DNA from: Candidatus Methylacidiphilales bacterium
GTDB taxonomy: Bacteria > Verrucomicrobiota > Verrucomicrobiia > Methylacidiphilales > JAAUTS01
Reading direction: 5' to 3'
DNA length: 63,959 bases
NCBI GenBank assembly: GCA_028713655.1
Contig: JAQTNW010000018.1
Span: forward strand, 1 to 63,959
The notes below the pieces were generated by a model, which was not told the origin of the DNA, made no database searches, and saw nothing but the letters and a program-made list of their open reading frames with translations. This document shows, piece after piece, positions 5,397 through 63,391 of the stretch (the stretch's first letter is position 1; each line of letters begins with the position of its first letter). A program made the position numbers and the translations under genes.

Positions 5397-5505
5397 TCGT
5401 TTTCCAGAGGTCGGGGCCGAAAATGGCCTTTGCATTCCGCCGCAGTTTGAGGATTCGGGTCAAAGGATCGCTTTGCTTGCCCTTGCCGATGATTTTTTTA
5501 ATCAC
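5338..5505 (-). CDS. Possible small gene overlapping the start of the nucleotidyltransferase
   Basis: In a different frame from the nucleotidyltransferase, the minus strand stays open from about 5560 to a TAA at 5338. It reads IPRFGTLPLVIKKI and then LKLRRNAKAIFGPDLWKTNE, which looks protein-like: basic and aromatic, with a plausible amphipathic helix. No ATG is present; a GTG at 5505 is the best start. The final ~19 codons overlap the nucleotidyltransferase. It may be a small partner gene or the decayed 3' end of one cut by the adjacent inverted repeat. Confidence is low. Confidence 0.3.
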   Translation of the reverse strand: MIKKIIGKGKQSDPLTRILKLRRNAKAIFGPDLWKTNERRTRLRKTFGPAGRTSG

Positions 5506-5548
5506 AAGGGGCAGTGTGCCAAAGCGCGGGATAATTGCAGCAAGAAAT

Positions 5549-5690
5549 AATAAGGCGTTTCCAATTCAAAAAAATCTCATTCAGGCGGTTTTGCTTGTAA
5601 CCCGGATGTCCCTGCACCCCTGTTCCTGCCACATTTTGGAGCAGGACACTTTGCAGGGGTTTTCAGGAACGGGTGAAACATCCGGGTTAG
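5549..5690 (+). repeat. Left arm of a long inverted repeat (REPIN/MITE-like)
   Basis: About 140 bases whose reverse complement recurs at 6182-6333. Shared blocks include AATAAGGC, TTCCAATTCAAAAA, ATTCAGGCGGTTTTGCTTGT, CCCGGATGT, TTCCTGCCACA, GGAGCAGGACACTTTGCA and ACATCCGGG. Within this arm the ends TAACCCGGATGT and ACATCCGGGTTA are themselves inverted, and nested hairpins (CCCCTG/CAGGGG, TCCTGC/GCAGGA) lie between them. The last bases supply the TAA stop codon of the cNMP-binding gene. Confidence 0.85.
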
Positions 5691-6037
5691 GGCTTGATGA
5701 AACGGTCCATCGCCCGGATGCGCTGAACCATCGTGCGCAGAACGCGCAGGGAGAAAAACGGGGTTTGTTGTACCATAAAAATAAACTGCTTTTCCGTAAG
5801 GGGCGACAACTCCACTTCCGTCTTGGCCATCGCTTTGGCGGAGCGCCCTTGGGAGTCAATCAAGGCCATCTCCCCGAAAAATCCGTCCTTGCCGACCGTT
5901 TCCACGAGCTGATTCGATATATACAGCTCCACTTCGCCTTTTTTGACAATATACATTAGATTGCCTGGGTCGCCTTCTTTGAAAATAATGTCGCCGGGCT
6001 TGAATTGAACATTCGTTGACTCTGTCTGTACGGTCAT
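5687..6037 (-). CDS. Small cyclic-nucleotide-binding (Crp-type cNMP) domain protein
   Basis: A 116-aa stand-alone cNMP-binding domain. It shows FKPGDIIFKEGDPGNLMYIV (strands and glycines of the beta-roll), a GEVELY segment, the phosphate-binding cassette FFGEMALIDSQGRSAKAMAKT (FGEMAL...R-A matches the FGE(I/L)AL...RSA consensus) and a C-terminal helix. There is no HTH, kinase or channel domain. Such proteins may sense cAMP/c-di-GMP or act as docking modules; no cyclase is nearby. The ATG at 6037 is chosen because CAGGAG lies 8 bases upstream. The gene is enclosed by the inverted repeats at 5549-5690 and 6182-6333, and its stop codon is part of the repeat. Confidence 0.9.
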   Translation of the reverse strand: MTVQTESTNVQFKPGDIIFKEGDPGNLMYIVKKGEVELYISNQLVETVGKDGFFGEMALIDSQGRSAKAMAKTEVELSPLTEKQFIFMVQQTPFFSLRVLRTMVQRIRAMDRFIKP

Positions 6038-6181
6038 TTTAGAACTCCTGCTGATTGGTTTACCCAAGCCCCGATTTTACGAAATCTGGCTTCATCCGAC
6101 ATTTGCCAGATGTGATGTCTCTGTAAATAAACGGTTTACCCGTTCATGCCCACAGGAAAACTGTTACAATTGTGTGACAAC

Positions 6182-6333
6182 TAGCCCGGATGTTTCACAT
6201 GCTTCTGAAACCCCGTGCAAAGTGTCCTGCTCCAAAGTGTGGCAGGAACCGAGGGTGCCGCGACATCCGGGCTACAAGCAAAACCGCCTGAATTGGTGTT
6301 TTGTTTTGATTTTTGAATTGGAACTGCCTTATT
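6182..6333 (-). repeat. Right arm of the long inverted repeat
   Basis: Inverted copy of 5549-5690. It begins TAGCCCGGATGTTTCACA and ends TTGGAACTGCCTTATT, so the pair faces inward around the 491-base segment carrying the cNMP-binding gene and its promoter region. Differences between the arms are scattered substitutions plus a short indel near the outer end, so this is an old duplication rather than an assembly artefact. A further fragment (GGCGGTTTTGC) follows at about 6338-6348. Confidence 0.85.
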
Positions 6334-6399
6334 TGGAGGCGGTTTTGCAATAAGCTGCATAGGCCCAGCGCGAGTCTTTCCGCTGTTGCCCTCAGTTGC

Positions 6400-7398
6400 T
6401 CAGATCCGCCAGCCTTGGAGGACGCGCATGTAGTTCCCGCGCTCGAATGCGGCGGGATCGGGGCAGGTTTTCAGACTCATGGAACCCCGAAGTTGTTCCA
6501 CGCTTTCGTATTCGTGTTCGTCCATCCATGTTTCCAGGCCGCGGAGCAAAAATCCAACATGGGCGGGCCCGTTTTTTAAGAGGGTGGAAACGACCTGCAC
6601 GGTTGTGGCTCCGGCCATCAGTCCTTTGACCAGATCGAGCGAGCGGTTCACGCCGCCGGACAGGGCGAGGTCCAGGCCGCAAAGCCCGTGCAGGGCCGCC
6701 AGCCAGCGCAGCCGCAGCAACAATTCCGAGGAATCGGAAAGGTGAAGGCGCGGAACCGCTTCAAGAAGCTCTACATCAATGTCAGGCTGGTAGAAGCGGT
6801 TGAAAAGCACGGCCGCATCGGCGCCGGACTGCTCCAGCTTGCTTACAAAGTGAAGCGGCGCTGTGAAGAAAGGTGAAATCTTTACGGCCAAGGGCAGGGA
6901 AACCCGGCCTGACACCTGCGAGACTGTTTCGAGCAGGCGCGTCTCGATCTCCATGGAAGTTTCTTTTGGGTTTGCCGACACCTGATACAGATTCAACTCC
7001 AGCGCGTCAGCGCCCGCCTTTTGGATCAGTTCCGCATAATGGGTCCAGCCGCCTGGCGTGACCCCGTTGAGCGAGGCGATCACGGGTATTCCCAGCGCCT
7101 CCTTGAGTTTGGCGATGTGCTCGAGGTATTCCTGCGGGCCGTGCGCGTAATCTTCGTTTTCCGGGAAAAAACTCAGCGCCTCAGAAAAGGAATCGCCATG
7201 AATCTGGGTGTGATAGTCCGTGGCCATGTCATCGGCCGTGATTTGCTCCTCAAAAAGCGAATGCAGAATGATGGCGGCGGCCCCGGAATCTTCGAGCTGC
7301 CGCGCTGTGTCCATTCTGTCAGCCAACGGTGAGGCTCCCGCAATGACGGGGTTTTTCAGCGTCAGGCCGTGGTAACAGGTTTCGAGTTTGGCTGTCAT
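6400..7398 (-). CDS. Dihydroorotate dehydrogenase-like flavoprotein
   Basis: A 332-aa TIM-barrel protein of the DHOD-like family: LKNPVIAGASPLA at the N-terminus (flavin-binding first strand), NGVTPGGW and LELNLYQVS in the middle, LPLAVKISPFF (conserved Lys), and LALSGGVNRSLDLVKGLMAGATTVQVVSTLL (phosphate/FMN-binding end). The cytosolic substrate is probably not dihydroorotate: the gene overlaps nifJ by 4 bases (ATGA) and so is translationally coupled to pyruvate:ferredoxin oxidoreductase, which suggests a redox role using ferredoxin. That role is inference. The gene ends close to the repeat-rich region at 6.3 kb. Confidence 0.9.
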   Translation of the reverse strand: MTAKLETCYHGLTLKNPVIAGASPLADRMDTARQLEDSGAAAIILHSLFEEQITADDMATDYHTQIHGDSFSEALSFFPENEDYAHGPQEYLEHIAKLKEALGIPVIASLNGVTPGGWTHYAELIQKAGADALELNLYQVSANPKETSMEIETRLLETVSQVSGRVSLPLAVKISPFFTAPLHFVSKLEQSGADAAVLFNRFYQPDIDVELLEAVPRLHLSDSSELLLRLRWLAALHGLCGLDLALSGGVNRSLDLVKGLMAGATTVQVVSTLLKNGPAHVGFLLRGLETWMDEHEYESVEQLRGSMSLKTCPDPAAFERGNYMRVLQGWRI

Positions 7399-11341: not shown

Positions 11342-11425
11342 CTTCCTCTACGTCCTTCGCGATCTTCCTGTAAAAAGGTGTTGTTTCCGGAGAGTTGGAG
11401 ATGGAGTTTGAGCAAAAGTAAGTGG
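11342..11425 (+). repeat. Dispersed intergenic repeat, copy 1
   Basis: Shares about 65 nearly identical bases with 12981-13063 (from CTTCCTGTAAAAA through GGAGAGTTGGAGA to GAGTTTGAGCAAAAGTAAG). Shorter reverse-oriented pieces (TTTTTACAGGAAGATCGCGAAG) occur at 17.69 kb and 54.59 kb. It codes for nothing that I can see and lies in the spacer between tRNA-Arg and the DUF2721 gene. Confidence 0.8.
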
Positions 11426-12980: not shown

Positions 12981-13063
12981 CCTTCCATGTTCTTTGCGTC
13001 CTTCCTGTAAAAAATGTGTTATTTTCGGAGAGTTGGAGAGGGAGTTTGAGCAAAAGTAAGTGG
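12981..13063 (+). repeat. Dispersed intergenic repeat, copy 2
   Basis: Same family and orientation as 11342-11425, with the blocks CTTCCTGTAAAAA, CGGAGAGTTGGAGA and GAGTTTGAGCAAAAGTAAG conserved in order. The two copies are direct repeats 1.6 kb apart flanking the DUF2721 and aldo/keto reductase genes. The copy lies 72 bases upstream of mbfA, so it could contribute to that gene's 5' region. Confidence 0.8.
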
Positions 13064-14437: not shown

Positions 14438-14872
14438 TTACAAAAAATACTCAGCATTTAGAGAAAAATGACTGCTTAGTTTGCGGATATGTTCCGCGGT
14501 AAGGTTGCGTTCTTCTCGGAGGATTTTGTTTCCCATCGTGGCATCCAGACCCAGGAATCGCCCCAGATCGGAAGGGTTCCAGTTCGCCGAGTCCAGAAGT
14601 GATTGCAGGCGCTCAGGGAGTGTTAATTTCCTCAATGAAAGATTCTTTTCGTGTTCCGCCTCGTAGGCGAGAATCAAGTCGGTCAAAAGCTCAAAGTAGT
14701 CGTTCTGATCCCGGGTGAATTGTTGTTCAAAACCGGCCATTGCCTCTGCGATTTCGAGCGCATTTTCATAACCTACTTTGTCGTGGATCGGGCGTGGCAG
14801 GCAGAGGGTGCAAAGCTGGCGATACTCTTTCGGAAAATCCGCGAAGTGAAGTTGCTTGCCGTTTTTTTTCAT
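14438..14872 (-). CDS. higA: HigA-type antitoxin (HTH domain)
   Basis: A 144-aa protein. The N-terminal two thirds are an extended helical region (ENALEIAEAMAGFEQQFTRDQNDYFELL). The C-terminal ~55 residues are a Cro/CI-type helix-turn-helix: LLDSANWNPSDLGRFLG then NKILREERNLTAEHIRKLS, ending SLNAEYFL as in many HigA proteins. It should neutralise HigB and repress its own operon. The ATG at 14872 overlaps the toxin stop (ATGA), so it is translated after the toxin, the usual higBA order. Confidence 0.88.
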   Translation of the reverse strand: MKKNGKQLHFADFPKEYRQLCTLCLPRPIHDKVGYENALEIAEAMAGFEQQFTRDQNDYFELLTDLILAYEAEHEKNLSLRKLTLPERLQSLLDSANWNPSDLGRFLGLDATMGNKILREERNLTAEHIRKLSSHFSLNAEYFL

Positions 14873-15177
14873 AGGGCTCCTTTCCACTGGTTCTTACTGT
14901 ATTCCGAATGTGTCATAAAGTGGAGAGTAAAAACCCGTTGCGTGTTAAAATGCACGGCGGCGATGAGGCGGTAATTATTGCCCGAAATGTTAAAAACGAC
15001 CACATTCCGTCCACTGCCTACCTGAACCAGATCTGCCGACCGGTACACTTGTCTCAGCGCTGCAAAGTTTTTAAATCTTGCCGCCTTAACGAGTGCGAGC
15101 CATGCCGACAGTGACGATGCGGCTGTGGGATGTTTGCGTGCCCACAGATGCACGGCCGCCGGCTTAATGACTTGCAT
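14869..15177 (-). CDS. higB: HigB-type toxin (RelE-fold mRNA interferase)
   Basis: A 102-aa protein matching the HigB family: MQVIKPAAVHLWARKHPTAASSL at the start, WLALVKAARFKNFAALRQVYRSAD, then VVFNISGNNYRLIAAVHFN and the C-terminal VFTLHFMTHSEYSKNQWK, which carries conserved His/Tyr residues. Members of the family cut mRNA on the ribosome. The ATG at 15177 is preferred over the TTG at 15189 because homology starts at MQVIKP. A small palindrome lies 6 bases upstream of the start and is a likely HigA operator. Confidence 0.88.
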   Translation of the reverse strand: MQVIKPAAVHLWARKHPTAASSLSAWLALVKAARFKNFAALRQVYRSADLVQVGSGRNVVVFNISGNNYRLIAAVHFNTQRVFTLHFMTHSEYSKNQWKGAL

Positions 15178-17615: not shown

Positions 17616-17689
17616 AAGAGGGCCAATCATCATGGCCGAAGCCCTGAAATTGTCGATTTGAATCTGGAGTTTTAACATGAACTGGAGAA

Positions 17690-17875
17690 CGCGTTTTTAC
17701 AGGAAGATCGCGAAGAACGCTGAAGCTTGCCCGCGAAACACACGAAGGTCACGAAAGGAAGGCCCGCCCGAGGATGGATTTGTCAATGCACCTGCGCCCA
17801 GACACAGAGGGCTTGAAACTGAAGACTGAAAATCCGCCGACGGACGGATTCGCCGGGCGCGAACTTAAAACTTGG
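17690..17875. repeat. Spacer with two kinds of decayed intergenic repeats
   Basis: The stretch between tRNA-Thr and pyk has no gene. TTTTTACAGGAAGATCGCGAAG (17693-17714) is the reverse complement of the repeat start at 11342. GACGGATTCGCCGGG followed by GCGAACTTAAAACTT (17844-17875) recurs almost exactly at 40061-40090. Low-complexity CACGAAGGTCACGAAAGG lies between them. Confidence 0.6.
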
Positions 17876-23399: not shown

Positions 23400-23486
23400 G
23401 CTAACCTGCATATTTCATACTCATTTTGATGATCGACCTGTTGGTGCTATTACCCAACAGTGGAAAGACTTTAGTAGCGGGTGAGG

Positions 23487-23497
23487 CATCCGGGCTA
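23487..23497 (-). repeat. REP-like motif supplying the stop codon of the FHA gene
   Basis: On the minus strand TAGCCCGGATG, where TAG is the stop codon of the FHA gene. It equals the ends of the inverted repeat at 5.6/6.2 kb and recurs at 63389-63399, where TAA ends vapC. Confidence 0.6.
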
Positions 23498-40039: not shown

Positions 40040-40100
40040 TAAAACCTACAAATCCGTCACAGGACGGATTCGCCGGGTGCGAACTTTAAACTTAATTCTT
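40040..40100. repeat. Intergenic repeat between convergent creD and uppP
   Basis: GACGGATTCGCCGGGTGCGAAC (first 20 bases also at 17844) followed by TTTAAACTTAATTCTTAAAA. Non-coding up to the uppP stop at 40092. No U-rich terminator is recognised in this 100-base convergent spacer. Confidence 0.6.
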
Positions 40101-54549: not shown

Positions 54550-54640
54550 GCAGGTGGACACGGATTAACACAGATGAAAACCAGCGCGTTTCTTACTGGA
54601 AGATCGCGAAGGACGTGGAGGAAATGATGAATGCAGAATG
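54550..54640. repeat. Intergenic repeat fragments
   Basis: The spacer 54415-54682 has no gene. CACGGATTAACACAGATGAAAA (54559) and GGAAGATCGCGAAGGACG (54598) belong to the same families as the pieces near 17.69 and 11.35 kb. Confidence 0.5.
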
Positions 54641-63001: not shown

Positions 63002-63391
63002 ATGATCCTGGTGGATTCCTGTGTTTATATCGATTGCCTGCGCGAAGGGCGCGATGTATTTGAAGCCCTGAGGCCCTGGGCAAATCGCTTTGACCTGGCA
63101 ACCTGCGGCATCGTCCGCTGCGAGGTGCTGGGAGGGGTGCGCAGACCCAAGCTCCGGCAAAAACTGTCGGAATATATGGATTGCATGCTCTATGTTCCCA
63201 GCATGGGCAGGATTTGGAAAAGAACCGAGACGTTGGCATGGGAACTGGACCGGCAGGGGAAAAGCCTGCCGTTGACCGATTTGATCATTGCCGTTTCCGC
63301 GATGGAAACAGGAGCGGCGGTATTGAGTTACGACCATCATTTCAACTTGATCCCGGGGCTGAAAGTATTTTCATCGCTGGAGTTGGAGTAA
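63002..63391 (+). CDS. vapC: VapC-type PIN-domain toxin
   Basis: A 129-aa PIN ribonuclease: Asp5 in MILVDSCVYIDCL, Glu in CGIVRCEVLGGVRR (~42), Asp in LPLTDLIIAVSAMETGAAV (~98) and the last Asp in VLSYDHHFNLI. The four acidic residues for metal binding are present. Such toxins usually cut tRNA or rRNA. The TAA stop belongs to TAACCCGGATG, whose ATG starts rdgB, so the two genes are almost joined. Confidence 0.92.
   Translation: MILVDSCVYIDCLREGRDVFEALRPWANRFDLATCGIVRCEVLGGVRRPKLRQKLSEYMDCMLYVPSMGRIWKRTETLAWELDRQGKSLPLTDLIIAVSAMETGAAVLSYDHHFNLIPGLKVFSSLELE

Follow-up and report, generated by a model that had tools for sequence, protein, structure and literature searches.

Inverted repeats around a sensor gene

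Long inverted repeats enclose a small cyclic-nucleotide-binding (cNMP) gene in the window (the whole stretch of 63,959 nucleotides that we analysed), which raises the question of whether they moved this gene, form a structure that serves it, or reached its two sides separately. The first-pass annotation, which placed the arms at 5549-5690 and 6182-6333, correctly described them as inverted copies around the gene: positions 5549-5690 pair with 6181-6333 through blocks of 74, 50 and 24 nt at 86-92% complementarity, far above chance, and identity between arm A and arm B is 82-86% (82% in a copy-by-copy ranking). Arms are present at those limits, but arm B runs past 6333 to about 6391. The internal hairpins are also there, as perfect 12-bp palindromes, TAACCCGGATGT/ACATCCGGGTTA in arm A (5598/5678) and TAGCCCGGATGT/ACATCCGGGCTA in arm B (6182/6263), whereas the TARCCCGGATG ends ascribed to entire arms belong to a palindromic unit that covers only the last 92-93 bp of each. 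A profile built from copies aligned with their flanks (nhmmer) identified both arms as 5'-truncated copies of a longer element, and its match to arm B extends to 6399, adjoining the stop codon of a DHO_dh gene. The features of the window are:

5549-5689, plus strand: arm A, a 5'-truncated MITE copy with the end of hairpin 2 and the whole of hairpin 3 (nhmmer model positions 109-259 of 259, E 6.3e-42)
5598-5689, plus strand: hairpin 3 of arm A, TAACCCGGATGT..ACATCCGGGTTA, whose last three bases supply the cNMP gene's TAA stop (RNA fold -45.8 kcal/mol, z -4.84)
5687-6037, minus strand: cNMP-binding gene, 116 aa, single domain (PF00027, E 1.3e-19)
6182-6391, minus strand: arm B, a 5'-truncated MITE copy with part of hairpin 1 and hairpins 2 and 3 (nhmmer model positions 43-259, match 6399-6182, E 8.2e-65; 5' limit near 6391 set by eye)
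6182-6274, minus strand: hairpin 3 of arm B, TAGCCCGGATGT..ACATCCGGGCTA (RNA fold -42.7 kcal/mol, z -4.43)
6278-6348, minus strand: hairpin 2 of arm B, GCAAAACCGCCT..AGGCGGTTTTGC (inverted repeat)
23402-23497, plus strand: third copy, with an internal deletion that leaves the start of hairpin 1 fused to hairpin 3's 3' end (nhmmer positions 1-68, E 6.2e-11; TAGCCCGGATGC at 23497-23486, minus strand)

A further candidate, TAACCCGGATGC at 63389, was rejected as an ordinary gene junction. Two other repeats occur in the window: an interspersed one, CTTCGCGATCTTCCTGTAAAAA and the bases that follow it, in both orientations (11343-11425, 12982-13063, 17688-17725 and 54590-54623), and a 44-bp one, AAATCCG..GGACGGATTCGCCGGG, whose two copies (17830-17873 and 40050-40093) are 86% identical.

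As the first-pass annotation had it, the repeat supplies the stop codon of the single gene that it encloses: the cNMP gene starts with ATG at 6037, and its TAA, the complement of arm A's last three bases, is the terminal TAA of that arm. The closest homologue of the protein (in genome G010, 52-53% identical) finishes at most about three residues away from the same point, so arm A inserted right at the gene's end. Within 1.5 kb of that homologue the element is absent. A scan with the DHO_dh protein found this neighbour at 80 loci of other genomes, with NifJ alongside in 79 of the 80 and a cNMP gene nearby in none.

A high-copy element of three hairpins

As modelled, the full element is 259 bp long (255 bp plus a 4-bp target duplication), or about 253-255 bp without target-derived bases, and is laid out as follows:

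Model positions 1-91: hairpin 1, CCTGCATA..TATGCAGG
Model positions ~93-165: hairpin 2, GCAAAACCGCCT..AGGCGGTTTTGC
Model positions 168-259: hairpin 3, CCCGGATG..CATCCGGG

BLAST of arm A against its own genome returned 41 places, and a pattern search for hairpin 3 returned 52 (reversed control, 0). The profile recovered 95 full or partial copies in stretches totalling 2.41 Mb of the 3.29-Mb draft assembly (90 contigs, 95% complete), and the genome-wide number is about 100 or more. The copy number rules out the alternative that the arms are an isolated duplication. By an approximate classification, in which some copies scored as hairpins 2 and 3 carry a diverged hairpin 1 that escaped the profile, 23 of the 95 are complete, 10 are without hairpin 2, and the others are truncated or solo pieces. 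In six complete copies identity to the consensus reaches 98-99%, a degree of likeness that suggests recent movement. Short, without coding capacity and dispersed in many copies, the element fits the general description of a MITE; it was not found in 61 other genomes of the order.

Ends, target duplication and the probable transposase

The element ends read YTAR/CCTGCATATTTCATAC and YTAR/CCCGGATGTTTCACAC, the slash marking the junction. Among 28 copies having both ends, 22 are flanked by equal 4-mers, nearly all of them YTAR, against 8.4 expected from shuffling and a maximum of 18 in 5000 shuffles; the family thus has the target-site duplication of a MITE. Because the duplication accompanies whole-element copies and is seen at 1 of 12 solo hairpin-3 pieces, the element from hairpin 1 to hairpin 3 is the transposing unit, and hairpin 3 alone was rejected in that role. 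An early reading of the flanks as a 2-bp TA target was replaced after the 4-bp test. The terminal inverted repeats are imperfect, with 17 of the outer 30 bases identical, a match equalled or exceeded by 0.08% of genomic 30-mers starting with C. At G000:C1:75367-75809, two head-to-tail copies have one CTAG in common, as expected for insertion into the duplicated target of another copy.

We searched the genome for Y1_Tnp, DDE_3 and PF13701 domains. The sole PF13701 (IS1380) remnant in the assembly is degenerate and lies behind CTAA/CCCGGAAAACTCACAC, close to the right end of the element, CCCGGATGTTTCACAC. Since the 90 contigs hold no intact IS1380 element, we infer the partner transposase from the likeness of its ends to those of IS1380 elements elsewhere. 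Those of genomes G099 and G233 and of the order-mate G032 have ends such as CTAG/CCCGCATTGTTCAC, CTAG/CCCGCATCGTTCAC and CTAG/CCCCCATTTCTCAC (both ends are of the CTAG/CCCG... type in G099 and G233, and those of G032 are similar), and they make 4-bp duplications that include the asymmetric words CTAA, TTAG and CTAT. The element shares with them ends that start with CC and contain a TTCAC-like block, a YTAR-type target and the 4-bp duplication, its ends agreeing at about 10 of 16 bases, but is a 255-bp MITE without a transposase gene. The best-supported mover is probably an IS1380-type transposase, which would cut at YTAR/CC junctions and insert the unit at YTAR sites. The PF13701 transposase family IS1380 has served as an outgroup to piggyBac (PMC10813416), and IS1247, a described IS1380 member, is listed with a 5-bp duplication (PMC3281130).

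The order-mate G032 offers a comparable case: a 178-bp MITE at 40 places, with ends CGGCCATTTCTCAC, NTAN duplications and equal 4-mers in 23 of 26 readable copies, occurs beside intact IS1380 copies (L321-L350). Like the element described here, it is non-autonomous and abundant, with IS1380-like ends and a 4-bp duplication; unlike it, it has near-perfect terminal repeats and an autonomous partner in the same genome, and the two interiors are unrelated. A 50-bp hairpin, CTAGCCCGCAT..ATGCGGGCTAG, forms the left end of the IS1380 element in G233 (L283:825-880, transposase-oriented), resembling hairpins 1 and 3 of the MITE. IS630 was also considered as a partner and rejected, its relatives with readable ends (one genome, four copies) having CTAGTGTCCAG.. 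termini. A DDE_3/IS630 transposase remnant (14666-15019) stops 5 bp short of a solo hairpin 1 that has CTAG at either side (G000:C1:14666-15120, L040); a LuxR-type ORF likewise has hairpin 1 at its 3' end.

Stop codons and hairpins

The cNMP gene is one of many whose end is set by the element: at least 26 of the 95 copies supply the stop of a neighbouring ORF. Ten such proteins were checked. Family matches reach almost to the C-terminus in an M20 dipeptidase, PTS enzyme I, a URO-D/MtaA-type methyltransferase, dihydropteroate synthase and a CcsB-like protein, so that in these cases the native stop codon is the most likely site of insertion. Since TAR stands at both element ends, a copy landing in the TA of a stop codon (TAA or TAG) would restore that codon. 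Of YTAR sites (non-coding and stop-codon sites together), 11% fall at stop codons, a chance expectation that would be higher if non-coding sequence is overestimated; an excess of copies there is possible and depends on gene calls that are crude ORF predictions.

All three hairpins fold better than shuffled sequences (z -3.6 to -4.8), and their stems are mostly invariant across copies. The outermost stem base covaries, being G-C in 23, A-T in 10 and mismatched in two copies of hairpin 1, and A-T in 35, G-C in nine and A-C in five copies of hairpin 3 (raw copy counts that ignore kinship). One partner of this outermost pair is target-derived in complete copies. Four of the five hairpin-3 mismatches occur in the six youngest copies, and the terminal stem bases match the target-derived base in old ones; the concentration of mismatches in the youngest copies suggests later homogenisation of the palindrome. 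We entertain, as a conjecture that is more probably wrong than right, that the element is so constructed as to do no harm at the 3' ends of genes, its TAR termini rebuilding stops, its hairpins (hairpin 2 as a terminator-like stem in either direction) closing the transcript, copies being tolerated or preferred at stops, and the stems being kept by hairpin-templated correction.

A rival account, in which a function as an RNA or DNA structure at the 3' ends of genes (termination or mRNA protection) maintains the element and its mobility is incidental, we consider very unlikely. It would draw on the folding of all three hairpins and on the covarying terminal base; moreover, the stem of hairpin 2 is A-rich, then GC, then T-rich, and so readable both ways, and 27 of 93 copies lie between convergent genes, as against 200 of 1014 intergenic regions. 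However, a terminator scan found no terminator-like site in 5400-6500, stems that are mostly invariant make the covariation evidence thin, and mobility alone accounts for the distribution. Rfam 15 gave no match above the gathering score at the arms, and three tRNAs were its only matches within the window. Such a function may be a secondary effect of the element instead of a true rival to mobility.

Two copies beside one gene

If the element is mobile, the arms need not have arrived together, and their kinship indicates that they did not. Arm A is closest to a copy at C4:81114 (90%) and arm B to copies at C11:30294 and C57:11127 (91%), whereas the partner arm ranks 15th among the relatives of arm A and 24th among those of arm B. 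Inverted pairs less than 1 kb apart number three, against 3.9 from random placement in non-coding DNA.

Both arms are very probably MITE copies of IS1380 type: each would have arrived by an insertion of its own, one on each side of the cNMP gene, and been shortened at its 5' end afterwards. The gene would thus be bracketed by chance. The first-pass suggestion that the arms may have mobilised the sensor gene is not supported by these observations, and it is very unlikely that the gene and the two repeats around it form a composite unit, a compound transposon or a REPIN-like cassette that moved, or is able to move, as a whole. The inverted arrangement around a single gene speaks for such a unit, as does the capacity of IS1380-family elements to move adjacent DNA (PMC9330008), and a unit of 677 bp might, in principle, be delimited by the perfect 12-bp inverted repeats at 5598 and 6274. 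Against this, each arm is nearer to other copies than to its partner (82% identity), neither arm retains its outer end, the possible inner unit has unequal 4-mers outside it (GTAA at 5597-5600, CTAC at 6272-6275), and close inverted pairs are at chance level, with no second such cassette seen in the 2.41 Mb sampled.

Relation to other repeats

Correia, RUP, ERIC and BOX elements are, like the element here, short, structured, modular or palindromic mobile repeats of intergenic DNA; several of them target TA, whereas this element has a 4-bp duplication and IS1380-like ends. The idea of a REPIN/MITE pair at the cNMP locus is upheld in its second half, by copy number and target duplication, but not in its first: REP or REPIN elements moved by a Y1 (RAYT) transposase are a very unlikely explanation, since the short palindromes at gene ends, the four Y1_Tnp genes in the genome, the GTAG at the foot of hairpin 3 in some copies and the abundance of GTAG REPs in another verrucomicrobium, Opitutus terrae (PMC3733652), are outweighed by a unit of 255 bp instead of a 20-40 bp hairpin, a 4-bp duplication that hairpin 3 alone is without, IS1380-like ends, and no copy within 1.5 kb of any of the four Y1_Tnp genes. 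GTAG-tagged REPs resemble the element in being palindromic, intergenic and near gene ends, where they often supply a TAG stop, and differ from it in their size, their GTAG tag and their ties to Y1 transposases (PMC3733652).

In the literature that we searched, outside which most subscription journals lie, we found no paper on bacterial IS1380-type MITEs. With this element, a verrucomicrobial lineage that has been little studied gains a high-copy family of MITEs, apparently of IS1380 type, and there is a simple explanation of how intact genes can take their stop codons from a mobile repeat. Nothing special is required to explain the bracket at the sensor gene.
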